Part shown: piece by piece, positions 39,986 through 56,687 of the stretch
Layout: every line of letters begins with the position of its first letter
Numbering within the stretch: the stretch's first letter is position 1
Assembly (NCBI GenBank): GCA_944324395.1
Contig: CALUWC010000010.1
Coordinates: 1 to 64,000, forward strand
Source of the DNA: Candidatus Gastranaerophilales bacterium
Lineage (GTDB): Bacteria > Cyanobacteriota > Vampirovibrionia > Gastranaerophilales > Gastranaerophilaceae
Direction of reading: 5' to 3'
DNA length: 64,000 bases
Notes under the pieces: model-generated
Seen by the model: only the letters and a program-made list of their open reading frames with translations
Databases searched by the model: none
Told to the model about the DNA's origin: nothing
Made by a program: the position numbers and the translations under genes

Positions 39986-40000
39986 TTCTTTTGTATAAAA

Positions 40001-41227: not shown

Positions 41228-41952
41228 TAATACAACCCTCCGTTAACTGAAATAACTTGTCCTGTAATATATCCGGCATCTTCACTCATAAGATAATTGA
41301 CAAGACTTGCCACCTCTTTTGCTGTTCCGAAACGTTTCATCGGAATATGTTTTTTTATTTCTTCAACAGGTAAATCATGTGTCATATCGGATTCTATAGC
41401 TCCGGGAGCAACACAATTTACTGTAATTTTACGTTTGGCAAGTTCAAGTGCCAAGGCCTTTGCGGCACCGATAATGCCAGCCTTGGAAGCACTGTAATTA
41501 ACCTGCCCGTAGTTGCCTCTAATACCTGATACAGATGACATGGCAACAATCCTGCCCTTAATTCGAGAAGCTATCATTGGCATAACTATAGGTTTTAATA
41601 CATTGTAAAATCCACCGAGATTTGTATTTAAAACGTTATCCCAATCCTCATCGGTCATTGAGGGAAATACTGAATCACTTGTAATCCCTGCATTTAAGAC
41701 CACTCCATAATAAATTCCATTCTTTTCAATATCCTTAGATATAACTTTTTGACACTGCTCTCTGTTTGTAGTATCAAATTGCAAAATCCGTCCGCGTACC
41801 CCGTATTTTTTTATTTCTTCAAGTACTTCCTGAGCTTTTTGAATATTTTTATTACAGTGCAACACTATATCAAACCCGTTTTGAGCCAGATATAAAGCTG
41901 TTTCTTTTCCTATTCCCCTGCTGGAACCGGTTATTAGTACAACTTTTCCCAT
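41227..41952 (-). CDS. fabG: 3-oxoacyl-ACP reductase, FabG type (ApeQ-like)
   Basis: A 241-aa short-chain dehydrogenase: TGSSRGIGKETALYLA for the NADPH site, NAGITSD, the catalytic Ser in AMSSVSGIRGNYGQVNYSAS and the YxxxK in YSASK, then VAPGAIESDM. It reduces the 3-keto group after each condensation. Placed between a hot-dog dehydratase and a ketosynthase, as in APE clusters (apeP-apeQ). The symbol reflects the family; a dedicated pathway role is inferred from position. Confidence 0.9.
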   Translation of the reverse strand: MGKVVLITGSSRGIGKETALYLAQNGFDIVLHCNKNIQKAQEVLEEIKKYGVRGRILQFDTTNREQCQKVISKDIEKNGIYYGVVLNAGITSDSVFPSMTDEDWDNVLNTNLGGFYNVLKPIVMPMIASRIKGRIVAMSSVSGIRGNYGQVNYSASKAGIIGAAKALALELAKRKITVNCVAPGAIESDMTHDLPVEEIKKHIPMKRFGTAKEVASLVNYLMSEDAGYITGQVISVNGGLY

Positions 41953-41956
41953 AATA

Positions 41957-42409
41957 TTATACTCCGATGCTATTCAAGTATTGCTGTGCATCCTGAGGCT
42001 GGTAAGCATTTATTGTAGCCTTTGCACACTCAACACCACTATTATAAATTAAACATTCAAATGAAACAAGTTCATTATCACAAAATATTTCTTTTGCCTT
42101 AATTAAATATTTTCTGCCGTTTTCAAATTTATCAACAGAACACTTATAAGAACGTGTTCCTAATAAAAAACCAATTTTAGGTGTAACATTATGATTTCTA
42201 AAATGAGTATAAGCAGCAATAGACTGTGCCATAAATTCAATTCCCAAAAGATAAGACACACCGTTTAGTTCTTTTTCAAAAAATACATTATCCTCTCTAA
42301 TTGTGACATTTGTCAGAATATATTCTTCTTTAATATTAACTTCTTCAATATCGTCTATTAGTATCATCGGATAATTATGCGGTAATATTTTTTCCAAATC
42401 GTATTTCAT
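41957..42409 (-). CDS. 3-hydroxyacyl-ACP dehydratase, hot-dog fold (ApeP-like)
   Basis: A 150-aa FabZ/FabA-like dehydratase. LPHNYPMILIDDIEEV contains the active-site His-x4-Pro/Met pattern of the hot-dog dehydratases, and LGIEFMAQSIAAYTHF the helix that carries the acidic partner. IGFLLGTRSYKC is the next strand. In APE clusters this enzyme leaves double bonds unreduced, giving a conjugated polyene, because no enoyl reductase is encoded. None is encoded here either. Co-directional with the ketosynthase upstream, 1 nt apart. Confidence 0.85.
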   Translation of the reverse strand: MKYDLEKILPHNYPMILIDDIEEVNIKEEYILTNVTIREDNVFFEKELNGVSYLLGIEFMAQSIAAYTHFRNHNVTPKIGFLLGTRSYKCSVDKFENGRKYLIKAKEIFCDNELVSFECLIYNSGVECAKATINAYQPQDAQQYLNSIGV

Positions 42410-42410
42410 G

Positions 42411-43487
42411 TTACTTCCCTAAAATTATAACTGCGTTTGTGCCACCAAAACCAAAAGCGTTACACATAATATTTTTAACTTCTTTAACTTTAGTTCCTTT
42501 TTTTACAAGATTTATTTTCGGAATTCCCGGGTTATACTCACCATCATAAATATGCGGAGGCAAAGTACAACTGCCGCTTCTTAAAAGCTCATAACATATT
42601 GCCGTTTCTATACTGGCAGATGCACCCAAACAGTGACCCGTAAGAGGCTTAGTAGCACCGGCAAAAATGTTTTCGCCGAAAACATTATATATTGCATTGG
42701 CTTCCATTGTATCATTAGCAAGAGTTCCCGTACCATGAAGATTTATATAATCAATATCTTTTGGAGCTAATCCTGATTCTTTCAACGCTAAAAGCATTGC
42801 ATTTGCAGCCTCAATGCCTTCTGGTTCCGGAGTCGAAGCATGATATGCATCCGACGTTTCGCCTATCCCGAGAACTTTTATCCCCTCGTCTTTTTTATCG
42901 AGTATAAATACAGCAGCCGCTTCAGAAATATTTATACCTGTCGGATTTTTACTGAACGGATTTGAACGCTTCTCCGACAGAACTTCTAACGATTTAAATC
43001 CTGCCAGCGGGAATTGGGAAATTTCATCTGTTCCGCCTGCAATAACAGCATCACAAAGTCCGCATTCAATCCATTGTTTTGCAGTCAAAAAAGCTTTTAT
43101 ACCTGAAGAGCAAGCCGTTGATACCCCGCAGCAAAGTCCTTCTAAGCCCAGATAATCTTTTACAAACTCTGCAGGATTACTCATTTTTAAAAATTCATAA
43201 TTGTGAGTTTTTTCGTAATCATCAATTCCGGTATTTGTGGTTGAAAATACGACACCTATTCTTTTAGAACCGTATTCCTTTATAAGTTTTTCAATATCCG
43301 GCTGGATTTTATTTAAACAATGCAAAAGCATTCTGTTACAACGAATGTTATAAACTTCCTTATGTATTTCAGGCAGAAGAGTTGTAATTTTAAAATCAAC
43401 AATTTTCCCATCAATAATATTTTGGAAAATTTCTTCTAAATTTTCACCTAAATTACATATAGCAGCTGCTTTTGTAATTCTAATCAT
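42411..43487 (-). CDS. Beta-ketoacyl-ACP synthase, short form (ApeR/O-like)
   Basis: A 358-aa ketosynthase, about 50 residues shorter than FabF. The triad is intact: VSTACSSGIKAFLTA, NLHGTGTLANDTMEA and PLTGHCLGASASIET. The N-terminal region before the fold is abbreviated. First gene of the leftward operon, with an AGAGGAA ribosome binding site and a minus-strand TATAAT at 43525-43520. It probably partners the other ketosynthase or the chain-length factor to set polyene length. Confidence 0.86.
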   Translation of the reverse strand: MIRITKAAAICNLGENLEEIFQNIIDGKIVDFKITTLLPEIHKEVYNIRCNRMLLHCLNKIQPDIEKLIKEYGSKRIGVVFSTTNTGIDDYEKTHNYEFLKMSNPAEFVKDYLGLEGLCCGVSTACSSGIKAFLTAKQWIECGLCDAVIAGGTDEISQFPLAGFKSLEVLSEKRSNPFSKNPTGINISEAAAVFILDKKDEGIKVLGIGETSDAYHASTPEPEGIEAANAMLLALKESGLAPKDIDYINLHGTGTLANDTMEANAIYNVFGENIFAGATKPLTGHCLGASASIETAICYELLRSGSCTLPPHIYDGEYNPGIPKINLVKKGTKVKEVKNIMCNAFGFGGTNAVIILGK

Positions 43488-43536
43488 TATTCCTCTTCTT
43501 GCAGAATTTTTCTATCAATATTATACTTATAATATC

Positions 43537-44127
43537 ATGAAGGAAATTATTTTTGATATAAAAAAATATTCTTATGTTAAAGATGAAGAGTGTGACGTTT
43601 CTTTCATTCCAATGATGACAAGAAGAAAACTCAACAAATTTGGAAGATGTGCTTTATATACTCTTTACAAAGTATATGAAAAGAATTCACCCCGTCTAGT
43701 ATTCGCTTCCGAATACGGGGACACAGAAAGAGTTGATAAGTTGATTAATCAACGAGTAACAGACGGTGACGTTTCACCCAACGGTTTCAGTTCATCTGTT
43801 CATAATGCTTCTATCGGATTATTTTCCTTGCTTGAAAAAAATAAAACAGGTTACAATTCTATTTCTGCAGGCGAAAGAACTATTGCACAAGGATTTCTGG
43901 AAAGTATTTTATCAAAGAATGCTGTTTTTTGTTATGCGGAAAGCCTTGGCGGCTTAAAAAGTGTTTCTGTATCAATCAATAATTCTAATGACGGAAAATA
44001 TTTACTATCAGAAAATATTGAAAATCTTGAATCAAAAGATTCTTTTGAAGATTTCATCAGATTTCTTGACGGGAAAGAAGATTTATTTGTAAGTGAGGTA
44101 TTCAAAATTCAAAGGATTGCACCATGA
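43537..44127 (+). CDS. Ketosynthase-like chain-length factor (ApeC-like)
   Basis: A 196-aa protein resembling the ketoacyl-synt_2 family used as chain-length factor in aryl polyene clusters. SPRLVFASEYGDTERVDKLI and DGDVSPNGFSSSVHNASIGL match the N-terminal ketosynthase half, followed by ISAGERTIAQGF. There is no Cys nucleophile or second His, so it is non-catalytic. First gene of the rightward operon; it shares only 49 bp with the divergent ketosynthase gene. A TATAAT ends just 3 nt before the ATG, so the true transcription start is uncertain. Confidence 0.8.
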   Translation: MKEIIFDIKKYSYVKDEECDVSFIPMMTRRKLNKFGRCALYTLYKVYEKNSPRLVFASEYGDTERVDKLINQRVTDGDVSPNGFSSSVHNASIGLFSLLEKNKTGYNSISAGERTIAQGFLESILSKNAVFCYAESLGGLKSVSVSINNSNDGKYLLSENIENLESKDSFEDFIRFLDGKEDLFVSEVFKIQRIAP

Positions 44128-44855
44128 AATTTCTCAGAGCAATTCTTGTACTGGCTGAAATATGTTTCTTTGGCATTGGAGCGTTAATAATAGGCTGCAT
44201 TATATTTCCGTTATTATCTTTATTCATAAAAGAAGAAAACCGACGAAAATTATTTTCAAATATAATACATTCATCATGGAATTTCTTTGTAGGATTGATG
44301 AAAAATACAAGAATAATCAATATCAACATTGATGGAGATTTGTCTAAAGTAAAAGGTAAAATTATTGCAGCTTCCCACCCCAGTTTAATTGATATTGTTA
44401 TTCTTATAGGAAACATGCCCAATTCTTTGTGCCTTGCCAAAAAAGAGCTTTTAAAAAATCCTGTTATGCACAATATTGTAAAATCCCTTTATATAATCAA
44501 TAATATAGAACCTGAAATTTTCCAAAAAAATGCAATGAAGGCACTGGCTGACGGATACAATATTGTAATTTTTCCGACAGGAACAAGAACTCTGCCGGGA
44601 GAACAAATTAAAATTCATAAAGGAGCCGCACAACTTTCATTGGTATCCGGAATTAATATTGTACCGGTGAATATAAAAACAGATTATCCGTTTTTAATAA
44701 AACATCACTCCCCGCTTGATGCAGGAAATAAGCCGGTGAATTACAATATAAAAATCATGCCTGAAATAAATCCTGAAAATTATATAAATGACACAGACAG
44801 TGAAATAAAAGCTCGCAACCGAATATCAGAAAAAATTAAAGAATATATAAATTGA
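44124..44855 (+). CDS. 1-acylglycerol-3-phosphate acyltransferase-like (ApeD-like)
   Basis: A 243-aa PlsC family acyltransferase with an N-terminal membrane helix (ILVLAEICFFGIGALIIGC). Catalytic HPSLID provides the HxxxxD motif and FPTGTRTLPG the glycerol-phosphate loop. In APE clusters ApeD loads or transfers acyl groups to form the membrane-bound aryl polyene lipid. It overlaps the chain-length factor by 4 nt (ATGA), so it is in the same operon. Confidence 0.86.
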   Translation: MKFLRAILVLAEICFFGIGALIIGCIIFPLLSLFIKEENRRKLFSNIIHSSWNFFVGLMKNTRIININIDGDLSKVKGKIIAASHPSLIDIVILIGNMPNSLCLAKKELLKNPVMHNIVKSLYIINNIEPEIFQKNAMKALADGYNIVIFPTGTRTLPGEQIKIHKGAAQLSLVSGINIVPVNIKTDYPFLIKHHSPLDAGNKPVNYNIKIMPEINPENYINDTDSEIKARNRISEKIKEYIN

Positions 44856-44901
44856 CTTTAGAAAGGGATTAAGTTATAAATTTAGTATAGGAATTAGATA
44901 A

Positions 44902-45159
44902 ATGACACTGGAAAATGATATAAAAGAATTAATAATAAAATCGCTGGAATTAGAGGACATTAAATCTTCTGATATAAAAGATGAAGAACCGCTTTTTGGC
45001 GACGGTTTGGGGCTTGATTCGATTGATGCTCTTGAACTTGGTATGGCTTTAAAAAAACAGTATAATATTACCTTATCATCAGATAAAGATGAAAATTCAG
45101 AATATTTTTATTCTGTAAAAACAATTGCCGATTTTATCAGGAGTAATAGCAGTGACTAA
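44902..45159 (+). CDS. Acyl carrier protein 1 (ApeE-like)
   Basis: An 85-aa acyl carrier protein with the 4'-phosphopantetheine serine in GLGLDSIDALELGMAL. LFGDGLGLDS is the standard DSL-type motif. Acidic, four-helix fold. It carries the growing polyene. The Sfp-type transferase at 51317 would install the prosthetic group. A second ACP follows immediately, as in apeE-apeF. Confidence 0.92.
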   Translation: MTLENDIKELIIKSLELEDIKSSDIKDEEPLFGDGLGLDSIDALELGMALKKQYNITLSSDKDENSEYFYSVKTIADFIRSNSSD

Positions 45160-45412
45160 AACTTTTACATACGATGAAATTATGAATAAATTGACAGAAA
45201 TCCTTGTTGATGATTTTGAAATTGACAAATCTGTTATCCGGCCGGAAGCAAATCTTTTTGAAGATCTGGAACTTGATAGTATTGATGCAGTTGATTTAGC
45301 AGTAAAGCTTCAATATTTTACCGACAAAAAAATCCCGCCTGAAAATTTTAAAAAAATTAAAACAGTTGAAGATGTTGCAAAAACTATTGAAGAACTCGTA
45401 AAATGCGATTAA
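45152..45412 (+). CDS. Acyl carrier protein 2 (ApeF-like)
   Basis: An 86-aa ACP from a GTG start at 45152, which has AGGAG 8 nt upstream. The attachment serine lies in FEDLELDSIDAVDLAVKL. It overlaps the preceding ACP by 8 nt. The longer in-frame start at 45125 is unlikely because it lies inside the preceding ACP coding region upstream of the good RBS. Two different ACPs are a hallmark of the APE/flexirubin pathways. Confidence 0.9.
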   Translation: MTKTFTYDEIMNKLTEILVDDFEIDKSVIRPEANLFEDLELDSIDAVDLAVKLQYFTDKKIPPENFKKIKTVEDVAKTIEELVKCD

Positions 45413-45834
45413 AATATATATTTCCAATATTGATTACTTTTGCAGTTATTCTGGTATTTCATTATACAAAAATATATTTTATAAAATTTTATCCTGTAGC
45501 TGCAAATTTAACAACATTTCTGGTATTTTTTGCATCATCATTTTCAAAAGAAACAGTTATCCAAAAATTTGCCAAAAGTCTTGAAGGCGGCATATTAGAT
45601 GATTTTACTAAGAATTACACAAGAAAATTAACTTATATATGGTGTATTATAACCTTTATAAATTTTATAATTTCAATAATAACAGTCTTTTTACCGGAAA
45701 AATGGTGGGCATTATATAACGGATGTATTTCATATTTTGCAATTGGAATGGTGTTTGTGGTTGAATATATTATAAGAATAGTTTTGAGAAAGAAATATAG
45801 AAAAAATGATATTAGAGAAATTTCAAACCGATAA
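45403..45834 (+). CDS. COG4648-like membrane protein (ApeG-like)
   Basis: A 143-aa polytopic protein with about four membrane helices (ILITFAVILVFHYTK, LTTFLVFFASSFSK, IWCIITFINFIISIITVFL, YFAIGMVFVVEYIIRIV). AKSLEGGILDDFTKNYTRKLTY between helices is the conserved loop of the COG4648 family that accompanies APE clusters. Function unknown. It overlaps the ACP gene by 10 nt and the ligase gene by 29 nt. Confidence 0.83.
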   Translation: MRLKYIFPILITFAVILVFHYTKIYFIKFYPVAANLTTFLVFFASSFSKETVIQKFAKSLEGGILDDFTKNYTRKLTYIWCIITFINFIISIITVFLPEKWWALYNGCISYFAIGMVFVVEYIIRIVLRKKYRKNDIREISNR

Positions 45835-47350
45835 ATATGATAATGAGCTTGTATTTATAAACCCTGATATTACTCTGGGAGAACTTAAGCAATATATCTC
45901 ATATCAATGCAAAGAGTTTGAAAAATCAGAAATTAAAAATATTATTTTATTCGGCAGTGATTATTTCAATTTTGCAATAAACTTTTTTGCCGCAGCTTTT
46001 ACGAGTAAACAAATATATCTTATATCTGACAAAGAACGTCTAAAATTGTTAAATGTTGATTATTTGATACCGGATAATGCCAAAAAGCTCAATGAAAAAA
46101 TCAATATCAATAATATACAGCCAAAAGATATTTTAATAAACTTTTTTACTTCAGGTTCAACCGGAGAACCCCAGAATATTCAAAAAAATTTATATAATCT
46201 TGAAGTTGAAGCTCGAACTACAATTGAAGAATTTAACTTGAAATCTGATCGTATATTCGTCGCCACAACATCATGGGCTCATAGTTTCGGAATAGTTTTT
46301 GATTTTATTCTTCCATTTGGCTACGGCTGCAGAATAAATAAAAAAAGAATAGATTTTCCGGAACAGCTGGATTTTGAAGATAATTACATATTAATTTCAA
46401 CCCCGTCTTTTATGGAAAAACTAGCAAAATATGATTACACTTTCTACAAGTCGCCTGAAAAAATCTTCCTTGCAGGAGCAAAATTAAAACCGGAAATTAT
46501 CGACTATTTTAAACAATACACAGACCTGATTGACATTTACGGAAGCACTGAAACAGGTAACATTGCATACAAAAGAGGCTACACAAATTTTACACCGTTT
46601 AGAGATGTCGAAGTAACAACCGATAATAAAAGTCAGGCTATTATAAAATCCGAATATTTTCCGCAAGAACAAGCTCTATTATCTGATATAATTGAATTTG
46701 TTAACGATAAAGAATTTGTCTTTAAAAAACGTTCCGACAGAATTGTTAAAGTATTTGAAAAAAGAATATCTCTTGATGAAATAGAAACTAATTTAAAAAA
46801 ACATAATAAAGTAAAAGATTGTTATTGCTTTATGTACAATGATAAATTAGCCTGTATTGTATCAACTGATGATATTAGCCTTGAAAAAGCCGACTTGAAG
46901 CATTTCCTTACAAATTATGGTGAAGTTGTACCTAAAAAATGGAGGCTCGTAGACGAACTTCCTAAAACTGCAACAGGCAAAATTGACAGATCAAAATTAT
47001 TAAAACTTTTCGGAATGAATCAATCTCTGCCTTTCGTAATTTCCAAAACAATAGAACATAACGAAGCAAACATTACACTAATATTTAAAAGAAATTCCAA
47101 CTTCTTTAATGGGCATTTTGATATGATGTCAATATTACCAGGAGTTGTTCAGCTTTATTATGCAAAATTTTTTGCAGACAATATTTTTAATATTGAAATT
47201 CCGCCAAAAGAAGTCAAACGGGTAAAATTTTCTAATATAATAAGACCTGACACCCCTGTTACTCTAACCTTGAAGAATAATGAAAATTCAGTTGAATTTG
47301 CCTACATGACTGATGCTAAAACATATTCTTCAGGTATATTTGTAAAGTAA
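45806..47350 (+). CDS. Acyl-AMP ligase fused to hot-dog dehydratase (ApeH-ApeI-like)
   Basis: A 514-aa two-domain protein. Residues 1-400 are an ANL-superfamily adenylating enzyme: NFFTSGSTGEPQNIQK (P-loop), DIYGSTETGNIAYK, KKRSDRIVKVFEK and the catalytic Lys in ELPKTATGKIDRS. In APE systems it activates the aromatic starter, for example 4-hydroxybenzoate, and loads it on ACP. Residues from about 405 form a thioester dehydratase-like hot-dog domain, with NGHFDMMSILPGVVQLYYA corresponding to FabA/Z HFPxxPxxPGV. In E. coli these are separate genes, apeH and apeI. The AMP-ligase core is short compared with normal acyl-CoA synthetases. Confidence 0.86.
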   Translation: MILEKFQTDKYDNELVFINPDITLGELKQYISYQCKEFEKSEIKNIILFGSDYFNFAINFFAAAFTSKQIYLISDKERLKLLNVDYLIPDNAKKLNEKININNIQPKDILINFFTSGSTGEPQNIQKNLYNLEVEARTTIEEFNLKSDRIFVATTSWAHSFGIVFDFILPFGYGCRINKKRIDFPEQLDFEDNYILISTPSFMEKLAKYDYTFYKSPEKIFLAGAKLKPEIIDYFKQYTDLIDIYGSTETGNIAYKRGYTNFTPFRDVEVTTDNKSQAIIKSEYFPQEQALLSDIIEFVNDKEFVFKKRSDRIVKVFEKRISLDEIETNLKKHNKVKDCYCFMYNDKLACIVSTDDISLEKADLKHFLTNYGEVVPKKWRLVDELPKTATGKIDRSKLLKLFGMNQSLPFVISKTIEHNEANITLIFKRNSNFFNGHFDMMSILPGVVQLYYAKFFADNIFNIEIPPKEVKRVKFSNIIRPDTPVTLTLKNNENSVEFAYMTDAKTYSSGIFVK

Positions 47351-47370
47351 TTTAAAGTTTGAGGTAAAAA

Positions 47371-47784
47371 ATGAAATTTGAATCAGAAACATTTATAACA
47401 GTACAATTCTATGATCTGGATCCAATGAACGTTGTATGGCACGGGAATTATATAAAATATCTTGAAACAGCAAGATGTGATTTGCTTGCAAAACTGGGGT
47501 ATGATTATGAATCTATGAAACGGGATAATGTTATGTATCCTGTTGCTACAATGGAAATGAAATATATTAAACCCTGCGAATTTCAGCAAAAATTGAGAAT
47601 CGTTTCTTCTCTTGAAGAAATTGAACCCTGTATGATTATTAAATATACAATATTTGATGCACAAACAAATGAGAAAATATTCAAAGCTAAAACAATGCAA
47701 ATCTGCGTGAATTCAAAAACTAAAGAAAGTTTATATTCTGCCCCTGAAGGTTTGAAAGATAAACTTGCTTGTTGTAATCTTTAA
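47371..47784 (+). CDS. Acyl-CoA/ACP thioesterase, 4HBT hot-dog family (ApeK-like)
   Basis: A 137-aa 4-hydroxybenzoyl-CoA-type thioesterase. TVQFYDLDPMNVVWHGNYIK contains the catalytic Asp with the WHGNY pattern of the YbgC/4HBT group, followed by LETARCDLLAKLGYDYESM. It may release or edit the aryl polyene or recycle stalled ACP. RBS GAGGT. Same operon, 20 nt after the ligase. Confidence 0.88.
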   Translation: MKFESETFITVQFYDLDPMNVVWHGNYIKYLETARCDLLAKLGYDYESMKRDNVMYPVATMEMKYIKPCEFQQKLRIVSSLEEIEPCMIIKYTIFDAQTNEKIFKAKTMQICVNSKTKESLYSAPEGLKDKLACCNL

Positions 47785-47786
47785 TT

Positions 47787-48308
47787 ATGAAAAGATTTAT
47801 TGTTATAGTATTATCAATTTTTCTGGCTGGAAGCTGTGTATCTGCAAAAGATGCGATATATCAATATCCCGCAAATATTGCAAATGTCAAAATACCTCAA
47901 AACACAAATGTTACCTGTAAGTTTACACAAACAAAAACTATTCCTAATTCACAAGCCTGCATTAAATCTGGGGGAAATTTTAAATTCAATATAAATAACG
48001 GGGTAATATTTGATACCCAGTATCCGGTTAAATCAACAACTGCATACACCTCAGACCAGAGCAAACGAATAAGTGATATAATCATTGCAATTTCAAAAAA
48101 AGATTACTCTTATATAAATAAAAATTTTAATGTTTATCATTTGAAAAATCAAAAGAATTGGGAACTTGCACTTCAACCAAAAAAAGAGTCAAAAATTCAT
48201 AATGTTATGGATTCAATAGTTATTCATGGAAACAATTATATAGATACTATTGAAATTAATACACTAAAAAACGGAAGTACCAAAATAAATTTTACAGAAT
48301 GCAGATAG
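47787..48308 (+). CDS. LolA-like periplasmic protein (ApeL-like)
   Basis: A 173-aa secreted protein with a Sec signal peptide (FIVIVLSIFLAGSCVSAK). The mature part has the LolA beta-strand pattern: VTCKFTQTKTIPNSQACIKS, GGNFKFNINNGVIFDTQYP, SITIHGN-like IVIHGNNY. LolA proteins escort lipids or lipoproteins across the periplasm. In APE clusters this member is paired with the MMPL exporter for transport of the polyene lipid to the outer membrane, supporting a two-membrane cell envelope. Confidence 0.8.
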   Translation: MKRFIVIVLSIFLAGSCVSAKDAIYQYPANIANVKIPQNTNVTCKFTQTKTIPNSQACIKSGGNFKFNINNGVIFDTQYPVKSTTAYTSDQSKRISDIIIAISKKDYSYINKNFNVYHLKNQKNWELALQPKKESKIHNVMDSIVIHGNNYIDTIEINTLKNGSTKINFTECR

Positions 48309-48309
48309 T

Positions 48310-50415
48310 ATGAAAAATATTTTAAGAATTTTATACATTTTACTTTTTGTCATAGCAGGAATATGGGTTTTTCTCCACCCTGTTAAAACAGAAACAAATT
48401 TACTAAGAGCAGTATATTCAAACAGCTATTCCGATGAAATAGTAGTAACCCTTAGCGGAAGATACTCTTCAAAAATAAATGTGTTGATAGAATCATCTTC
48501 TGTTCAATCAGCTTCACAGGCTGCTGACAAATTCTTAAATTCAATTGATAAAAAATCTTTTATGATTAAAGATTTTGATTTCTCAAAAATTCTTTCAACC
48601 CTGCAAATATATAATCAAAATCTGTTATCCGCATCAACTGCAAAAGAATTGGAAAATAAACAATATGACGCAGTTACAACACAAGCATACAACAGGCTGC
48701 TTGACCCTTTCGGAATTATGCTTCTGCCATTGAATGAAGATCCGTTTGTCCTGTTCGGAGATTATTTGAAATCTTTAGGAAACGATAATTCGGACACTCT
48801 TGAATATAACGGAAAACATTATAAATTTTTATCTCTGGAAGTGAACAATAATATTGCATTATCGCCTGATATTGTAAACAAAAAAATTAAAGAACTGACA
48901 CGTTTGCAATCCGAAATGTCAAACAGTGACGTAAAAATTTATCTTACAGGGACACCTATCCATTCTTACTATGCAAGCTCAAAATCAATGATAGAAATTA
49001 ATATTATTTGTGCATTATCCTCACTATTTATACTTGCAATCTGCTATTTTTATTTCAGGAATTTAAAACTTCTAATACCCATAGCAATAAGTCTTGGCGG
49101 AGGAATTCTGGCAGGATATCTGCTATGTGCAATATTTTTCCCTTCAATACATGTTTTAACATTTGTTTTTTCAACAACATTAATCGGTATCTGTATTGAT
49201 TATTCTTTGCACTACTTTATAGAAAAAGATATTGAAAAAATATTTAAAAGCCTCACCGTTAGTATGCTGACAACAGTAAGTGCCTTTGCAATACTTCTTT
49301 TTTCAGGTGTAGAACTTTTGAAACAAATATCAGTATTTACAATGACCGGATTATTTACGGTTTATTCAATGGTAGTTTTATTTTACCCGCTGTTCAAATT
49401 TTCCGGTCAATCCGGCAAAATCAATTTTAATCTTACTCCAAAATTCAAAAAAATATTTTCAGTAGTCATTATTCTGGTATCAGTATGCGGAATTTTCTGT
49501 CTAAAATTTAATGATGATATAAGAAACTTATATGTTCCGTCTAAAAAACTTATGAAGGCAGAAAAACTGTTTGCTGAAGTTACCGGAGGAAACAAAAAGA
49601 CAACATTTGCCCTTATTAAGGGAGAAAACATGCAAGAAATCTTGCAAAAAGAAGAAAATATTACCAAAAATCTGATGCCTCAGGATTATCAGGCAATAAG
49701 TAAATATATACCATCAATTAAACGCCAGCAGGAAAATTTTAATCTGAGAAAAGTCTTATACCAAAAAGAATTGAATAAATATGCACAGTTTTTATCACCA
49801 AAAGAAAAACAGAAATTATTAAATTCAAAACAAACTAACAAATATTTAGAATATAAAGATTTACCTGAATTTTCCGAATTCATGCCGGATAAAAACACTT
49901 CACTTATAGTTCTTTATGATATAAAAAATCCGGAAATCATAACGAAAAACGGTGCCGAATATATAGACGTAACCCAAAGTATTACAACAAAAATAAGAAA
50001 CTGCAGAATCAACTGTGTGAAAATGCTTCTGCCAATTTTTATAATTCTTTTTGCTCTTTTATCCTGCATCTATAAACCTAAAACAGCATTAAAAATAACA
50101 TCCCCATCAATCATTGCCGCTGTATTTTCAATCGCACTGGTATCATTAACCGGACAAGAAATTAACCTGTTCCATATACTTGCAATATTTCTCATAGTAG
50201 GTTTCGGACTTGATTATTCCGTATTCAGGGCAAGCGGAATACAATCAGCTTCCGATGCAGTTTTACTATCCTGTTTAACAAGTATTTTTTCATTTTTACT
50301 ACTGGCATTTACAAGTTTCAAACTCATCAGTTCTCTCGGCTTTATATTATCTGCAGGGTTGACAGTATCATATCTTGCAAGTCTTCTGTTTGACTACAAA
50401 AAGGAGAACGGTTAA
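48310..50415 (+). CDS. MMPL/RND-type exporter (ApeM-like)
   Basis: A 701-aa MMPL family membrane protein with two halves. Each half has a long periplasmic loop and about five membrane helices. Signature regions are LLIPIAISLGGGILAGYLLC, STTLIGICIDYSLHYFIEKD (helix 4 Asp-Tyr motif) and FLIVGFGLDYSVFRASG in the second half. It uses proton motive force to export lipids. Its place right after a LolA-like gene suggests export of the aryl polyene. Length is short relative to RND pumps but normal for ApeM. Confidence 0.88.
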   Translation: MKNILRILYILLFVIAGIWVFLHPVKTETNLLRAVYSNSYSDEIVVTLSGRYSSKINVLIESSSVQSASQAADKFLNSIDKKSFMIKDFDFSKILSTLQIYNQNLLSASTAKELENKQYDAVTTQAYNRLLDPFGIMLLPLNEDPFVLFGDYLKSLGNDNSDTLEYNGKHYKFLSLEVNNNIALSPDIVNKKIKELTRLQSEMSNSDVKIYLTGTPIHSYYASSKSMIEINIICALSSLFILAICYFYFRNLKLLIPIAISLGGGILAGYLLCAIFFPSIHVLTFVFSTTLIGICIDYSLHYFIEKDIEKIFKSLTVSMLTTVSAFAILLFSGVELLKQISVFTMTGLFTVYSMVVLFYPLFKFSGQSGKINFNLTPKFKKIFSVVIILVSVCGIFCLKFNDDIRNLYVPSKKLMKAEKLFAEVTGGNKKTTFALIKGENMQEILQKEENITKNLMPQDYQAISKYIPSIKRQQENFNLRKVLYQKELNKYAQFLSPKEKQKLLNSKQTNKYLEYKDLPEFSEFMPDKNTSLIVLYDIKNPEIITKNGAEYIDVTQSITTKIRNCRINCVKMLLPIFIILFALLSCIYKPKTALKITSPSIIAAVFSIALVSLTGQEINLFHILAIFLIVGFGLDYSVFRASGIQSASDAVLLSCLTSIFSFLLLAFTSFKLISSLGFILSAGLTVSYLASLLFDYKKENG

Positions 50416-50416
50416 T

Positions 50417-51289
50417 ATGCAGTGGTATCAAATGAGAGAACAAGCAGCAGGTGCAACAAGACTTCTAATTATCTGGAATTTATATAAAGTTTTTGGCAAA
50501 AAATTTGTAAGATTACTCGTATTTTTTATAACCTTTTTTGCTTTTTTAGGTGCCTCAGAACCACGTAAATACTCTAAAAAATACCTTGAAATTGCCGGGT
50601 TGAACTCAGGAATATTAAACCAGTTTAGACATTTTCTGGCATTTTCTGACACTTTGCTTGATAAAATGGAGGTTTTTTCAGGAAAATATGAGCCGAAAAA
50701 TATGATTTTTGATAATGAAAAAGATAAAGATATGTTTATTGAGGATTTAAAAAGAGGAATATTTGTTATAGGTTCGCATCTTGGCAATATAGAAATGATG
50801 AGAGCATTTTTGCGGACAAATATTTGCAAACATTTGAATATTTTCCTGTCTGCAGATCAATGCAAAATATTCAACCATTTTATAAAACAAATAGAAATTC
50901 AAAGTCCTGTTGACATTTATCCTGTTGAGAATATCACTGTAAACACTTCAATCGAAATAAAAGAAAAAATTTCGAAAGGTGAAGTCGTTGTAATGGCAGG
51001 AGATAGGATCTCGCAAAACAGCATAAACACTAATGCTGTCTTTTTAGGTAAAAAAATCCGAATTCCTTCAGGCACATTTAAATTTGCATATCTTATGGAA
51101 AGTCCGATATATTTTATCTGCACACTTAAAGAAGGTGAAAAATACAGAATATATCTAAAAAAATTTAAATACAACGGAAATAAAAAAGAAACAATCCAGC
51201 AAATGCAAAAAGAATACCTGGAATTTTTAGAAAAACTTACACATAAATATCCTTTCCAGTTTTTCCATTTTTATGATTTTTTTGAGTAA
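50417..51289 (+). CDS. Lipid A/LpxL-type acyltransferase (ApeJ-like)
   Basis: A 290-aa LABLAT family acyltransferase. GSHLGNIEMMRAF gives the HxxxxE catalytic motif and VVVMAGDRISQNS the second block. The N-terminus has one hydrophobic segment (VRLLVFFITFFAFLGAS). I take ATG 50417 with AAGGAG upstream, just after the stop of the exporter gene. In E. coli ApeJ is a larger protein that also has a glycosyltransferase domain; only the acyltransferase part is present here. It may attach the polyene to a lipid carrier. Confidence 0.82.
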   Translation: MQWYQMREQAAGATRLLIIWNLYKVFGKKFVRLLVFFITFFAFLGASEPRKYSKKYLEIAGLNSGILNQFRHFLAFSDTLLDKMEVFSGKYEPKNMIFDNEKDKDMFIEDLKRGIFVIGSHLGNIEMMRAFLRTNICKHLNIFLSADQCKIFNHFIKQIEIQSPVDIYPVENITVNTSIEIKEKISKGEVVVMAGDRISQNSINTNAVFLGKKIRIPSGTFKFAYLMESPIYFICTLKEGEKYRIYLKKFKYNGNKKETIQQMQKEYLEFLEKLTHKYPFQFFHFYDFFE

Positions 51290-51310
51290 CATAAAGTTTT
51301 ATAGTAATAT
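51282..51310 (+). promoter_or_regulatory. Promoter of the phosphopantetheinyl transferase gene (leaderless)
   Basis: TTGAGT (51282-51287) and TAATAT (51305-51310) with a 17-nt spacer. The ATG at 51317 is 6 nt after the -10 and lacks a Shine-Dalgarno. It overlaps the end of the acyltransferase gene, so the transferase has its own promoter. Confidence 0.5.
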
Positions 51311-51316
51311 ACTTTT

Positions 51317-51835
51317 ATGGAAATATATTATATAAATTCCGAAAAATTTTTAAAAACACACGATATTGAATTTCTGCATCAATATGCTGATAATAAAAAA
51401 TTTAAATCACTAAAGAGATTTATACAGTACACTCTTGGCAGGTATATTGTAAAAACTGCCGGAGAAAAAATCTACAACCTTCCGGATACAACAATAGAAA
51501 TTCAAAATAAAAAACCAAAATTTAAATATGGAAATATAAAATTCAGTATAAGCCACAGCAGCAAAATAATAGCTACAGCTTTTGATAAATTTGAATGCGG
51601 ACTTGATATAGAAGAAATGAAACCAAGAAATCTTAATGAACTATCAAAATACTATGAACAAAAGTTTGAAACTCAAGAGGATTTTTACAAATTCTGGACA
51701 GAAAACGAAGCAACAATAAAACTTCAGCAAAAAGCAAAAACAAAATATAGTAAAATTATAGAAAATAAATACATGCTAACAGTTGTTTCTTCTGATGAAA
51801 AATTTTCCGAACCTACGGATATTATTGAATTATAA
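51317..51835 (+). CDS. Sfp-type 4'-phosphopantetheinyl transferase (ApeB-like)
   Basis: A 172-aa compact Sfp-family enzyme, activating ACPs by adding 4'-phosphopantetheine from CoA. KFSISHSSKIIATAF is the ISHS motif and CGLDIEEMKPRN carries the metal-binding Asp-x-Glu. FYKFWTENEATIKLQQK corresponds to the WxxKEA motif, with Asn-Glu in place of Lys-Glu. Its likely substrates are the two ACPs upstream. Its stop codon falls inside the left end of the MITE-like element, so the C-terminus may have been set by the insertion. Confidence 0.86.
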   Translation: MEIYYINSEKFLKTHDIEFLHQYADNKKFKSLKRFIQYTLGRYIVKTAGEKIYNLPDTTIEIQNKKPKFKYGNIKFSISHSSKIIATAFDKFECGLDIEEMKPRNLNELSKYYEQKFETQEDFYKFWTENEATIKLQQKAKTKYSKIIENKYMLTVVSSDEKFSEPTDIIEL

Positions 51836-52054: not shown

Positions 52055-53107
52055 ATGTACTATCAAGGACTAATCAATAAATACAGAGAATATTTACCCG
52101 TAACGGATTCAACACCTGTCGTTACCTTAAATGAAGGTAATACTCCTTTAATTAAAGCTGAAAACTTAGCAAAAAAAATCGGGGTTGATGCTGAAATATA
52201 TTTGAAATTTGAAGGCTGTAACCCGACAGGCAGCTTTAAAGACCGTGGAATGACAATGGCTGTCACAAAAGCGAAAGAATCCGGTTCGGGTGCTATAATT
52301 TGTGCTTCAACAGGTAATACTTCTGCTTCAGCTGCAGCCTACGGAGCTAAAGCAGGCTTGAAAACTTATGTTTTAATTCCTGACGGTTATATTGCACTAG
52401 GCAAACTATCTCAAGCTATGATGTACGGAGCTGAAATTATTGCTATTCAGGGAAATTTTGACAGAGCCCTTGAAGTGGTAAGAGAAATCGCTGAAAAATA
52501 CCCGATAACATTGGTTAATTCCGTAAACCCTTACAGAATTGAAGGTCAAAAAACAGGAGCTTTTGAAATCTGTGAAGCATTAGGTCAGGCTCCTGATTAC
52601 CATTTTATACCTGTTGGCAATGCCGGTAATATTACCGCATACTGGAAAGGCTATAAGGAATGGAACAAATTAGGAAAAATTCCTGCACTTCCGAAAATGA
52701 TGGGCTTTGAAGCAGAAGGAGCTGCCGCAATCGTTAAAGGCGAAAGAATTATGAATCCTGAAACAATCGCAACAGCTATCCGTATAGGAAATCCTGCAAG
52801 CTGGAAATATGCTGAAGCAGCCAGAGATGAAAGCAACGGCATGATTAATTTTGTTACGGATGAAGAAATTGTAAAAGCCTATAAACTCATAGCCTCTTCA
52901 GAAGGTATTCTGGCAGAACCTGCATCAGCAGCTTCTGTAGCAGGACTTATAAAAGTAAAAAATCTAATCAAAGAAGGTTCCAAAATAGTTTGTATCCTAA
53001 CAGGAAACGGCTTAAAAGACCCTGATAATGCCATAAAATATTCAAATGACGAAGTTAAAAAAACTTCTTCAAATTTGACAGATATTCTCAAAGCCATGAA
53101 TATATAA
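52055..53107 (+). CDS. thrC: Threonine synthase
   Basis: A 350-aa PLP enzyme of the short bacterial class that forms threonine from O-phosphohomoserine. The PLP lysine is in [18 protein letters not shown], and the phosphate loop follows in [35 protein letters not shown] and [11 protein letters not shown] are further conserved blocks. AAAAGGAAAAGAGGA provides the RBS. It stands alone, without thrA or thrB beside it. Confidence 0.95.
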
Positions 53108-53125
53108 CATTAAAGGTAGGTTAAG

Positions 53126-53593
53126 ATGAAAAAAATGTTTTGGGTCGTTGGAATTTCAGTAATAACTTTATGCAGCTGTATTTGTGTAAGAACTTTTGCT
53201 TACAGTGATGATTCTGCCGCTAAACTACAAGAATTCAAAAAACAGCAGGCTCAAATAAAAAAATATATACCATATTATAACAATCTGGCAACCTGCATTC
53301 CATATAAAAGTGATATGTATAAAATTTACGGAAAAGTAAACGGGGGATGCCATATTTATCTGCAAGATGATATCGGAAACGGTTATGACTGTCATGTTCC
53401 TATGACCGTAGCAAAAGCTAACAGTTCTTATGGTAAAAGTGTAACCAGCAAAATGTCTGCTATAAATTTGGAAGAACTTGCTTCTAATAATGCAGAACAA
53501 TTTATAAAAGAATTTACAATGATTATAAATGACTTGAAGCCTCTAACAAAAATGGAAAATGCTATTTTACAATATCATTGTAAGAAACTATAA
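53126..53593 (+). CDS. Secreted hypothetical protein, 155 aa
   Basis: A hydrophobic N-terminal signal (VVGISVITLCSCICVRTFAYS), probably Sec type with cleavage after FAY. The mature protein has three cysteines (ATCIPY, GGCHIYL, YDCHVPM) spaced like disulfide partners and a fourth near the C-terminus (YHCKKL). Helical at both ends. I recognise no family. It sits 18 nt after thrC, possibly in the same transcript, and ends in a strong terminator. Confidence 0.75.
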   Translation: MKKMFWVVGISVITLCSCICVRTFAYSDDSAAKLQEFKKQQAQIKKYIPYYNNLATCIPYKSDMYKIYGKVNGGCHIYLQDDIGNGYDCHVPMTVAKANSSYGKSVTSKMSAINLEELASNNAEQFIKEFTMIINDLKPLTKMENAILQYHCKKL

Positions 53594-53624: not shown

Positions 53625-53660
53625 ACAAGGCAAAACTATAATAGTTTTGCCTTGTTATAT
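53625..53660. terminator. Strong bidirectional terminator
   Basis: ACAAGGCAAAACTAT (53625-53639) and ATAGTTTTGCCTTGT (53641-53655) form a perfect 15-bp inverted repeat with a 1-nt centre, flanked by AT-rich sequence. It separates the convergent secreted-protein and graspetide precursor genes. Confidence 0.88.
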
Positions 53661-53680: not shown

Positions 53681-55330
53681 TTACAGAAGCTTAGGTTCAG
53701 AATCTCCGCCTTCTTCTCCAAGTGCCATTGTAGTGATTTGCCCGCCGCCTTCTTCTCCGATAGACATTGTGGTAACAGGAACATCACCATTTTCATTTAA
53801 TCCGTAAGTGCCTGCATCAACCTCGTTATTAGGCAGTTTAATTTCACCGTTTCTTATTTTTTCCAATAATTCCAGTATATTTTTTGTGGCTTTTTCATCC
53901 AAAATAGGCTTATCATTTTTATTTTTTAAATCTTCAATTAGTTTACGGAATTTCTCTTTAACATCATCAGATAATATGACAGAATCTCCGCCTTCTTCGC
54001 CCATAGCATAAGTTGTTATTGTCTCAAAGCCACCGTCTTCACCAATTGCCGCTGTAAAAGCTGTACCACCCTCTTCATTTGTAGCTTTGGTTGTTATGCC
54101 ATCACCGCTTTCACCAATTGCCGTTGTAACAGCTGAGCCGCCTTCTTCATTCAAAGCCATTGTGGTAATATTTTCACCACCCTCTTCACCAAGTGCCATT
54201 GTTGTTGGTGCTGCATCACCGGTTTCACCCAAGCTATATGTACCTGGCTCAATTGGACTCTTCGGAAGCTTTATTTCTCCATTTTTTATTTTCTCTAAAA
54301 CTTCTTGAAGTGTTTTCCAAGTATCGTCATCAATTTTTACGTCAGCACCTGTTTTATTTTTCAACTGTTCTACTGCCTCTTGAATTTTTTTTGACATTTC
54401 ATCATCGACTTTTACCGAACCGCCACCTTCTTCACCAAGTGCCATTGTTGTTGCTGCATCTCCGTTCTCGCCTAAAGCATATGTACCGGCTCCGATTGGA
54501 GGTTTTGGAAATTCTATTTCTCCATTTTTTATTTTTTCACTGTAGTCTTGAAGCATTTTCAATGTTTCCGGATCCAGATGTACCGGTAAGTCATGCCGAT
54601 ATATCCTGAAATCACCTTCTTCCTCTTTAGGAACAGATAGTTTTCCCGGACCATAAGTACCTTCCTCCTCCAGAGCTACAGATATTTGCCCCGGGCCATA
54701 AGTACCTTCCTCCTCTAGAGGTACAGATATTTCCCTCGGACCAACCATAGGCGACAAATCAGCTTGCTTTTTCTCCCGACGTTCAGCCATTTTTTCCAAA
54801 GCTTCCTGCATTAGTTTTGGAAGTTCTACTCCTCCGTTTTTCATTTTCTCTATATTTTCCCGAATTTGTTTCTGTGCTTCTTCATCCATTTCAGGAAGTT
54901 TTATTTCACCGTTTTGAACTTTCTCCCAAAATTCCTGACCTATTTTTGGATCTATTAATTTTCCAATAGTCATTGGAGGTTCGCCTTGTTCTTCACTTAA
55001 ATAAGATATACCTATCTTAGGATCAATACCTTGTTCTTTATCCGGGTAAGATATATTAAGTTTCTGGTTTCTTGCCCCATCATTGAAGTTTACAAAAGTA
55101 TTCTCATCAGGATTCTTTTCAACGTAAAATCCTTTCACTTTTAAATCTTTTGCATTATTTAAATCTTTTTTAGATTCAGTTTTCTTAGCAAGTTTGTCTA
55201 TTTCAGCATTTATTTGCTCGGAAGTAGGTTTTTTCACACCTTGAGCATTTAACTCTTCTTTTGCTTTTCTAGTCAACAAATCCTTATTATAATCATCACC
55301 GGATCCGCCATCTACTCTAAATGTTGTCAT
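53681..55330 (-). CDS. Putative multi-core graspetide precursor, 549 aa
   Basis: The start is ATG 55330 with AAAGGAG upstream. No signal peptide or enzyme motif. The N-terminal 80 residues are a charged helical region (DLLTRKAKEELNAQG). The rest alternates helical modules with short repeats of consensus x-[T/S]-x4-E-x-G. Seven match TTxxxxEE exactly (starting at residues 294, 376, 389, 413, 439, 520 and 533, for example TTMALGEEGG). Five keep one Thr and one Glu (GTYALGENG, GTYSLGETG, VTTAIGESG, FTAAIGEDG, GTYGLNENG), and five use Ser (ISVPLEEEG, ISVALEEEG, LSVPKEEEG, ISYPDKEQG, ISYLSEEQG). TTxxxxEE is the core motif of plesiocin-type graspetides, whose Thr and Glu side chains are joined by ATP-grasp ligases, and such a ligase is divergently adjacent. 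Alternative: a structural repeat protein. Confidence 0.75.
   Translation of the reverse strand: MTTFRVDGGSGDDYNKDLLTRKAKEELNAQGVKKPTSEQINAEIDKLAKKTESKKDLNNAKDLKVKGFYVEKNPDENTFVNFNDGARNQKLNISYPDKEQGIDPKIGISYLSEEQGEPPMTIGKLIDPKIGQEFWEKVQNGEIKLPEMDEEAQKQIRENIEKMKNGGVELPKLMQEALEKMAERREKKQADLSPMVGPREISVPLEEEGTYGPGQISVALEEEGTYGPGKLSVPKEEEGDFRIYRHDLPVHLDPETLKMLQDYSEKIKNGEIEFPKPPIGAGTYALGENGDAATTMALGEEGGGSVKVDDEMSKKIQEAVEQLKNKTGADVKIDDDTWKTLQEVLEKIKNGEIKLPKSPIEPGTYSLGETGDAAPTTMALGEEGGENITTMALNEEGGSAVTTAIGESGDGITTKATNEEGGTAFTAAIGEDGGFETITTYAMGEEGGDSVILSDDVKEKFRKLIEDLKNKNDKPILDEKATKNILELLEKIRNGEIKLPNNEVDAGTYGLNENGDVPVTTMSIGEEGGGQITTMALGEEGGDSEPKLL
53708..55054 (-). repeat. Array of 17 TTxxxxEE-like core repeats and five EKxxNGxIxLP spacer repeats
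   Basis: Core-like repeats lie between residues 93 and 541 of the precursor. Between them the helix-cap motif E-K-x-[KQR]-N-G-[EG]-[IV]-[EK]-[LF]-P recurs at residues 136, 161, 265, 346 and 490. The last three copies each precede a GTYxLxE(N/T)G core and then full TTxxxxEE cores. This spacer-core-core order suggests duplication of a whole leader-core module rather than of single cores. Confidence 0.8.
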
Positions 55331-55464
55331 CTTTGCTCCTTTCAAAATTATACACACAAACAATTCTTACGGCAGACAAATAAAAAATCTTTAGAAAAAA
55401 TTTTTAAATCGTTACAATTGGAAATATAAAAAAAAATCCTTTACTATATAAAAGGAGGCTGAAA
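55331..55464. promoter_or_regulatory. Divergent promoter region of precursor and ATP-grasp genes
   Basis: 134 bp separate the two start codons. On the minus strand TATAAT (in TGTGTATAATTTTG, near 55348-55353) is a good -10 for the precursor, though close to its AAAGGAG site. On the plus strand ACTATATAAAAGGAGG supplies a -10-like TATATAA and RBS for the ligase. A shared regulator site would fit here, but no clear palindrome is seen. Confidence 0.4.
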
Positions 55465-56337
55465 ATGATTCTTATTATAGGAAGTGACGAAGATTTTCAT
55501 TCAAAATACATACTGGAAAAGTTACATGAACAAAATACCCCGGCAAAATATTTTGATACAAGGAAATATCCTGTATTAAACTGGTCGCCGGAAGGTGAAA
55601 ATGATTATATTATACTTGATGATGAGAAAATTTACCTGAAAGATGTCACAGGAATATACTGGAGATGGTACTACGGGGTAATTTATGGAACGTCTGACAT
55701 AGTATACAGAGAAAAGACATCCGCCCTTGAAAGCTTCCTGTGTTCGCTTGAGGATATCAGCTGGAACTCGCTGCAATCTGTTGAATTACATCGAAAAAAA
55801 GGGCTGCAAAGTAAAATTATGCAAAATAACGGAATAAGAATTCCTAAAACTATCGTTACTAATGACCAGGATGCCCTTGAAAAATTCTACCTTGAAAATA
55901 ACAAAAACATTATCTACAAACCTGTTAGAGGCGGAGCTTATACTCAAAAATTAAAAGAGGAAGATTTTTTACGCAAAGATACACTGATAAATTGTCCATG
56001 CCAGCTTCAGGAATGCATTGACGGCATTGATATTAGAGTTTATGCATTTGAAACAGGAGAAATTTTTTCAGGTGAAATACTTGCAAACAGTATAGATTTC
56101 AGAGCAGATGACAAAGCAAAAATTAACAAACACCCATTGCCGGAAAATATTCAAAAAGATTGTCTGAAAATATTAAAACTTCTTGGATTAAAATACTCAG
56201 GTATTGATATACGATTGAGCAATAGCGGAGAATACGTATTTATTGAAGCTAATCCTGCCCCAATGTTTACTCACTTTGAAAACATGACAGGTTATGAAAT
56301 TACAAACACGCTTATAAAAAATTTGAAAAAAGTTTAA
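55465..56337 (+). CDS. ATP-grasp peptide ligase, graspetide (MvdD/PsnB-like) type
   Basis: A 290-aa ATP-grasp enzyme. The N-terminal domain starts MILIIGSDEDFHSKYILEKL and has GIYWRWYYGVIYG near 63-75, matching the W-x-R segment of microviridin ligases. ATP and metal residues are visible: K152 in YKPVRGGAY, QECIDGIDIRVY (182-193), GIDIRLSNSGEYVFIEANP (247-265) with E263 and N265, and a C-terminal TGYEITNTLIKNL. The last block closely follows the MvdC/MvdD/PsnB pattern. RimK-like or other carboxylate-amine ligases are the alternative. RBS AAAGGAGG. Divergent to the repeat-bearing precursor. No protease or transporter is adjacent. Confidence 0.82.
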   Translation: MILIIGSDEDFHSKYILEKLHEQNTPAKYFDTRKYPVLNWSPEGENDYIILDDEKIYLKDVTGIYWRWYYGVIYGTSDIVYREKTSALESFLCSLEDISWNSLQSVELHRKKGLQSKIMQNNGIRIPKTIVTNDQDALEKFYLENNKNIIYKPVRGGAYTQKLKEEDFLRKDTLINCPCQLQECIDGIDIRVYAFETGEIFSGEILANSIDFRADDKAKINKHPLPENIQKDCLKILKLLGLKYSGIDIRLSNSGEYVFIEANPAPMFTHFENMTGYEITNTLIKNLKKV

Positions 56338-56352
56338 TATAGATATAATAAT

Positions 56353-56637
56353 TTAGCTCAATTCAATATCTAAACGTGTTTTGCCTTCACCACGATTTAT
56401 AATACCGTCGCCATTTTGCTCAAGATAAAAATATTTTTGTTGTTTACCGTCAGAAGATTGAATGTTCATTTGATCAACAGAAATAATATTCCCTGAGTTA
56501 TCTTTTTGAACAGAAACTATAAGATTTTTCCCGTCTTCATTATAATAAGACTCTATAATCCTGCCACTTTCTCCTCGTTCTGTTTCTACCCTATATCCCG
56601 GACTATTTTTTAATATTTCTACAAGAACATGTAAATA
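56353..56637 (-). pseudogene. 5'-truncated remnant of an unknown gene
   Basis: An open frame of about 94 codons on the minus strand ends at a TAA (56355-56353) but has no start codon for its first 60 codons; the first ATG is internal. The translation is protein-like, with beta-strand rhythm (PGYRVETERGESGRIIESYY, LIVSVQKDNSGNIISVDQ, YFYLEQNGDGIINRGEG). I infer a C-terminal domain left after deletion of the upstream part. The rest of the 377-nt gap up to rpoC2 holds only the terminator. Confidence 0.55.
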
Positions 56638-56656: not shown

Positions 56657-56687
56657 AGGAACGCTCCTGAAATTCAGGAGCGTTCCT
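56657..56687. terminator. Terminator hairpin downstream of rpoC2
   Basis: AGGAACGCTCCTGAA (56657-56671) and TTCAGGAGCGTTCCT (56673-56687) form a perfect 15-bp inverted repeat with a 1-nt centre. It lies 27 nt after the rpoC2 stop on the minus strand. T-tracts are weak, but it is the only strong hairpin in the gap. Confidence 0.75.

Follow-up and report, generated by a model that had tools for sequence, protein, structure and literature searches.

Several graspetide systems in which more than one core is modified on a single precursor have been described. Plesiocin is a four-repeat graspetide that carries two esters per repeat and gains potency with the number of its rings (PMC12291112, PMC13097080). 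According to the latter, a 2026 survey, group 2 graspetides are usually accompanied by an NHLM/PCAT transporter (PMC13097080). The AMdnA/AMdnC system of Anabaena relies on one ATP-grasp enzyme that acts distributively on three microviridin cores from one leader (PMC5934393). Corallotide, of group 15, is formed on CorA, a chain of ~22 kDa with five modified repeats, and the same survey also names the RODEO groups 34 and 35, with long repetitive precursors, where group 35 consists of synthetase and precursor alone (PMC13097080). Makarova et al., finally, took candidate precursors of 150 aa or less (PMC8939145).

The locus presented here combines a synthetase-like enzyme with a very long repetitive protein. 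It lies in the window, i.e. the whole stretch of 64,000 nucleotides that was analyzed, on a contig of 90 kb. The genome, of 1.89 Mb and 99.4% complete, comes from the Gastranaerophilales, non-photosynthetic relatives of the cyanobacteria. Each of the two genes is single-copy in the genome. The initial annotation had put a 290-aa ATP-grasp gene divergently adjacent to a 549-aa repetitive protein at 53681-56337, and both reading frames were indeed found at those positions, separated by a gap of 134 bp. The features are:

53625..53655, plus strand: terminator-like palindromic hairpin just 3' of the precursor gene (consensus match only)
53681..55330, minus strand: giant graspetide-type precursor (549 aa, 59.8 kDa, pI 4.6, no Cys)
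53705..55054, minus strand: core region with 17 decapeptide cores, 7 of them exact TTxxxxEEGG (inner pair T/S2-E7, G9)
53705..53773, minus strand: exact cores TTMALGEEGG and TTMSIGEEGG
53987..54016, minus strand: exact core TTYAMGEEGG
54065..54205, minus strand: exact cores TTKATNEEGG, TTMALNEEGG and TTMALGEEGG, with the variant VTTAIGESGD between
54422..54451, minus strand: exact core TTMALGEEGG, beside the variant GTYALGENGD
55073..55114, minus strand: conserved leader block NPDENTFVNFNDGA (aa 73-86), with the motif TFVNF at aa 78-82
55331..55464: divergent intergenic region of 134 bp, containing both ribosome-binding sites
55465..56337, plus strand: gene of the PsnB/MvdD-like ATP-grasp graspetide synthetase (290 aa; sequence, profile, tree and fold searches)
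56657..56687, plus strand: terminator-like hairpin between the synthetase gene and rpoC (consensus match only)

The ATG of the precursor is preceded by a ribosome-binding site, GAAAGGAG (identified by eye), and the homologues at four related loci (L045-L048) start at the same place; an alternative TTG start at 55363 would yield a precursor of 560 aa instead of 549 aa. Promoter-like matches within the divergent gap were not informative. On the minus strand at 56353-56622 a short open stretch reads ...MNIQSSDGKQQKYFYLEQNGDGIINRGEGKTRLDIELS, with no long ORF upstream; these may be the remains of a gene, located between that of the synthetase and rpoC. The region that adjoins the system at ~40000-51835 encodes ketoacyl synthases, a ketoreductase, an acyltransferase and an AMP-binding/ApeI-like dehydratase, together with a large RND/MMPL-like membrane protein and a small Sfp-like ORF (both by eye), and looks like an aryl-polyene-type cluster.

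Plesiocin (PsnB/PsnA2, group 2) provides the nearest solved enzyme, and shares with the window a single synthetase, several cores per precursor and the motif TTxxxxEE, which we take to be the core of plesiocin. The differences concern scale and organization: against four repeats in plesiocin, the window precursor has ~550 aa with 7 exact or 17 relaxed cores, its cores are a mixture of one-pair and two-pair types, the genes are divergent, an NHLM/PCAT transporter is absent from the locus, and the phylum is another one. The AMdnA/AMdnC system likewise has one ATP-grasp enzyme for several cores behind one leader, but its cores are three and of the microviridin type, and its enzymes fall in a separate, well-supported clade. 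Corallotide (CorA/CorB) is comparable as an unusually large graspetide with repeated modified sites, whereas its links are Lys-Asp isopeptides accompanied by hydroxylation, its motif is different and its locus includes oxygenase and beta-lactamase genes. The RODEO groups 34 and 35 resemble the window in their long precursors with repeated donor/acceptor motifs, and group 35 also in its two-gene make-up (PMC13097080); the window family may be a member of either group. The size of the precursor had been called exceptional. With 549 aa, above the ~150-aa cut for short precursors (PMC8939145), and 17 cores it is certainly extreme, but with long repetitive precursors already reported (groups 34/35) and corallotide characterised at ~22 kDa (PMC13097080), it does have precedents. 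In the literature searched, no graspetide report from Gastranaerophilales was found. The locus is best read as a plesiocin-type system that has been scaled up, multi-core and long repetitive precursors being known already and the order being new among the literature searched.

The ATP-grasp enzyme and the leader motif

On its sequence and predicted fold, the 290-aa enzyme is a graspetide synthetase. Of the NCBIfam families, MvdC (104 bits, 7.8e-30), MvdD (103 bits, 2e-29) and SAV_5884 (94 bits) were matched alongside rimK_fam (55.6 bits, 53.7 in a second search, with a cut-off of 143.4), all four under their curated cut-offs, and the same families were obtained for 25 out of 25 aligned relatives. 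The Pfam domain, PF08443, is common to RimK. The best PDB sequence match was 7drm (1.4e-30), whose entry title names PsnB, the plesiocin enzyme; the identity to PsnB is 27%. A family profile likewise placed PsnB first (193 bits), followed by MdnC (129), AMdnB (113), CdnC (111) and RimK (42), with E-values of 9e-56 for PsnB versus 7e-10 for RimK. Moreover, Foldseek ranks 1-31 of the AF2 model (pLDDT 91.7) were all graspetide macrocyclases (PsnB, MdnC, AMdnB, CdnC, PruB and MdnB; PsnB at 8e-26), with RimK appearing first at rank 32, and the structural comparison (VIA) gave a Z of 29.3 for PsnB and of 24.6 for RimK. The likeness to MvdD/PsnB that had been noted from the sequence thus holds, with PsnB as the best match in profile and fold; a grouping with RimK or glutathione synthetase devoid of graspetide relatives, the outcome that had been named as speaking against it, was not observed.

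Among the relatives of the synthetase the residues K152, E183, R191, R213, D248, E261 and N263 are invariant, and they align with identical residues in the PsnB blocks YKPV, QE, VRVY, DFR, MDI and ELN. Presumably they serve in the binding of ATP and Mg, as is general for ATP-grasp enzymes. A tree separates the enzymes of the Gastranaerophilales, together with their Moorena-type relatives, from both the microviridin clade (100/99) and the RimK/ligase outgroup, but has PsnB on a long, unsupported branch.

The N-terminal part of the precursor contains a putative docking site. The block NPDENTFVNFNDGA is largely invariant in five precursors, and 14 of the 15 precursors show a motif [PTS]F[VI]x[FY] N-terminal to their cores, where 0.10 would be expected. 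This motif fits, loosely, the leader motif Phhx(1,2)h described for graspetides (PMC8939145): a Pro heads it in L054 and L058, a Thr in the window. Given that TFVNF occupies residues 78-82, the last core lies ~450 residues away from the presumed docking site. The precursor had no family match in Pfam/NCBIfam-type profile searches and no credible PDB match. Its AF2 model (pLDDT 37, with weak helices between the cores only) was unusable, and therefore no structural claim is built on it.

The cores and the precursor family

The precursor contains exactly seven copies of TTxxxxEE, each directly followed by GG, whereas residue-shuffled versions average 0.047 copies and never exceed 2; other TT-x(k)-EE spacings (k = 1-9) do not occur in it. 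When the definition is relaxed to [T/S]2-x4-E7-x-G9, which is keyed on the inner pair only, 17 cores are found versus 0.9 expected. Both figures in the initial annotation, seven exact motifs and about 17 cores, were thus recovered, the latter under this relaxed definition. Over 63 distinct cores, T/S at position 1 coincides with E/D at position 8 in 37 and both are absent in 13, whereas the donor alone is absent in 11 and the acceptor alone in 2 (p = 1.6e-5). The pattern supports, but does not prove, that a predicted outer T1-E8 ring disappears with both of its residues together and that the inner T2-E7 ring is retained; position 10 also tracks the outer pair and the core types share descent, and the association could stem from the descent of a few core types and not from the chemistry. 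Variability peaks at position 3 (K, M, Q, Y, L, I and E; 2.9 bits among the exact cores), which may represent a recognition residue.

A precursor with the same core adjoins most synthetase loci, either divergent or neighbouring, and sizes in the family run from 58 aa with one core to 549 aa with 17 cores. Neighbouring precursors of 464, 409, 387, 454, 386, 384, 188, 247 and 374 aa hold 2-17 relaxed cores, the small ones of 58, 60 and 72 aa have one TT[MQ]ALGEEGG each, and the precursor at L052 is a tandem array of TTMALGEEGGDSERTV repeats. In the g23 genus (L063-L066, beside fusA) the partners of 160-174 aa show a different repeat, TxAYPSDDAxG, possibly a separate core type. Precursors also occur away from the synthetase, in G054 at 13 kb on the same contig and in G047 and G272 on other contigs; their linkers are Pro-rich or plain and the N-terminal SFVRF or TFINF is kept. 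Among such detached precursors, those at L159 (4649-5236) and L160 (4277-4957 and 5083-5670) have Pro-rich PPxGPPIKPP spacers and the same leader motif and cores. Second precursors in G303 and G202 were rejected: they end at contig borders and are therefore probably one gene broken by repeats.

The spacers of two precursors from another genus (L049, 6619-7779; L050, 6300-7454) are of a distinct kind. These proteins start with MFWLNGCF, including a Cys, and have DKPSWGKPDC repeats and long HHWGHHHWGH runs between the cores, a His/Trp/Gly- and Cys-rich composition that would suit the binding of metals. The enzymes of these loci branch from within the genus of the window in the tree, a hint of transfer. 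Two other loci (L067, 318-2790; L068, 6743-10352) contain a distant ATP-grasp paralogue and a HExGH metallopeptidase-like gene, followed by a TKISEK/TSEK repeat protein, with a second ATP-grasp-sized gene before the paralogue in L068; this arrangement is possibly another repetitive-substrate system.

A comparison with the nearest relative, G042 (L045), is informative on how the cores change. The DNA of enzyme, promoter and leader is 72-88% identical between the two, versus 95-100% for the core region (53701-55112), in which a block of ~100 codons is found in the window alone and 24 codons in G042 alone; the cores show a dN of 0 with 5 synonymous changes. Because of this difference in identity the ring-bearing core region appears, at the level of the DNA, to recombine between species independently of leader and enzyme. 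A second near-identical tract between the two genomes covers the 3' half of thrC (52501-53200).

The distribution of the core motif matches that of the enzyme. The synthetase is present in 6 of 46 genomes of the genus and in 23 of 383 genomes of the order, spread over 8 genera. A scan for TTxxxxEEGG at the DNA level gave 54 matches in the 46 genus genomes, all in the precursor gene or at contig ends, and 97 matches in 20 of the 383 order genomes, 18 of which have the synthetase (Fisher test 2e-24, kinship ignored); a reversed-pattern control gave 6 matches. The pairing of precursor and enzyme that had been proposed is in line with this co-occurrence. As to the two other genomes, in G035 the pattern-bearing sequence stops at a contig end, and G098 has a single match and carries a different, MvdC-like enzyme. 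The latter (L119, C9:51856-52794; 4.6e-51) is much more MvdC-like and distinct from the window family. Conversely, the exact motif is missing from five synthetase-positive genomes; these show other core types or a paralogue. In G033 the synthetase is gone and a 133-aa precursor remnant with no exact core is left. A further relative of the synthetase was found in photosynthetic Moorena, beside a 133-aa ORF with SITTFPIGEEGGASTLCLEEEGGD, and none was found in viral contigs. Nearly all genomes of the family are metagenome assemblies; the locus recurs in many species.

The predicted product and its alternatives

Considered together, enzyme and precursor very probably constitute a two-gene graspetide system, with ester/amide chemistry predicted from sequence and model. 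A conserved third gene is absent from the 20 loci compared, among which enzyme and precursor alone recur. Chorismate synthase, phosphopentomutase and nadA were rejected as parts of the system, being housekeeping genes of closely related loci. There is no protease conserved near the locus (20 loci), no NHLM/PCAT transporter at the locus and no signal peptide to be seen on the precursor. Peptidase_C39, present in 8 of 14 control genomes, was not found in the 99.4% complete host genome, and a dedicated double-glycine peptidase-transporter was set aside for that reason. The absence of protease and transporter that had been annotated thus extends from the locus to a C39 domain anywhere in the genome. 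Generic proteases or lysis may provide the route of processing or release.

According to the proposed mechanism, the synthetase would dock on the TFVNF motif of the 549-aa precursor, phosphorylate Glu side chains with ATP and have these esterified to Thr/Ser in the same decapeptide core. Each of the 17 cores would obtain an inner T2-E7 ring, and the seven of the TTxxxxEE type an outer T1-E8 ring as well, up to ~24 esters in total, such that the product would be a ~60-kDa chain in which spacers separate ester-locked hairpins. Since no dedicated peptidase or transporter is seen, this product is probably large, and either intact or just generically trimmed. That it stays fully intact as a large protein is a tentative proposal. 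With comparable caution, and by analogy with plesiocin, itself a blocker of proteases, it could act as a multi-headed serine-protease inhibitor; to reach proteases outside the cell such an inhibitor would have to be exported, of which no sign was seen. The complete picture is plausible at best: maturation would leave a polyvalent ~60-kDa chain intact, with mono- and bicyclic ester hairpins on spacers and with varied recognition loops, the enzyme would reach ~450 residues from its docking site, and repeat expansion together with recombination would let species change how many rings they make and of which kind.

The same chemistry could possibly result in an ester-cross-linked structural, scaffold or metal-binding protein in or on the cell, and not in an inhibitor. 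The missing signal peptide, transporter and C39 peptidase are in line with such a role, as are the spacers, which vary widely by species from predicted helices to Pro-rich and to the His/Trp/Gly- and Cys-rich stretches of L049/L050; in addition, corallotide is large and has been likened to collagen (PMC13097080). Against this role, it is core position 3 that varies most within the loop, as in a recognition loop, the single-core relatives of 58-72 aa resemble ordinary small graspetides, and the potency of plesiocin rises with the number of rings (PMC13097080). An unlikely course of events is that housekeeping proteases cut the precursor between the cores and release many small bicyclic peptides. 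Almost all cores are followed by GG, a sequence at which RiPPs are commonly cleaved (PMC8939145), and tandem arrays like the TTMALGEEGGDSERTV repeats of L052 resemble concatemers. However, the GG after E7-E8 is inside the conserved decapeptide and not at a leader/core border, long, partly conserved spacers separate the cores within the genus, and neither a C39 domain in the genome nor a conserved nearby protease is available for the cutting. Finally, it is very improbable that a RimK-like ligase adds glutamates to an acidic repeat protein without cyclisation: RimK does come next in similarity of fold (Z 24.6) and has PF08443 in common, but it scores far below the PsnB/Mdn enzymes in every comparison, the window enzyme reaches 55.6 of the 143.4 bits of the rimK_fam cut-off, and glutamylation would not require the Thr-Thr and Glu-Glu pairs that the substrate has at a constant distance.

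If the reading as a polyvalent graspetide is true, graspetides would extend from short peptides to proteins, a class of system that surveys limited to precursors of ~150 aa would miss. The natural series, in which related enzymes serve precursors with 1 to 17 cores, would lend itself to the study of many-site processing from one leader, and the Gastranaerophilales would offer a defined ring-forming system. Were the product an inhibitor, it could bear on how gut bacteria meet the proteases of host or rivals.
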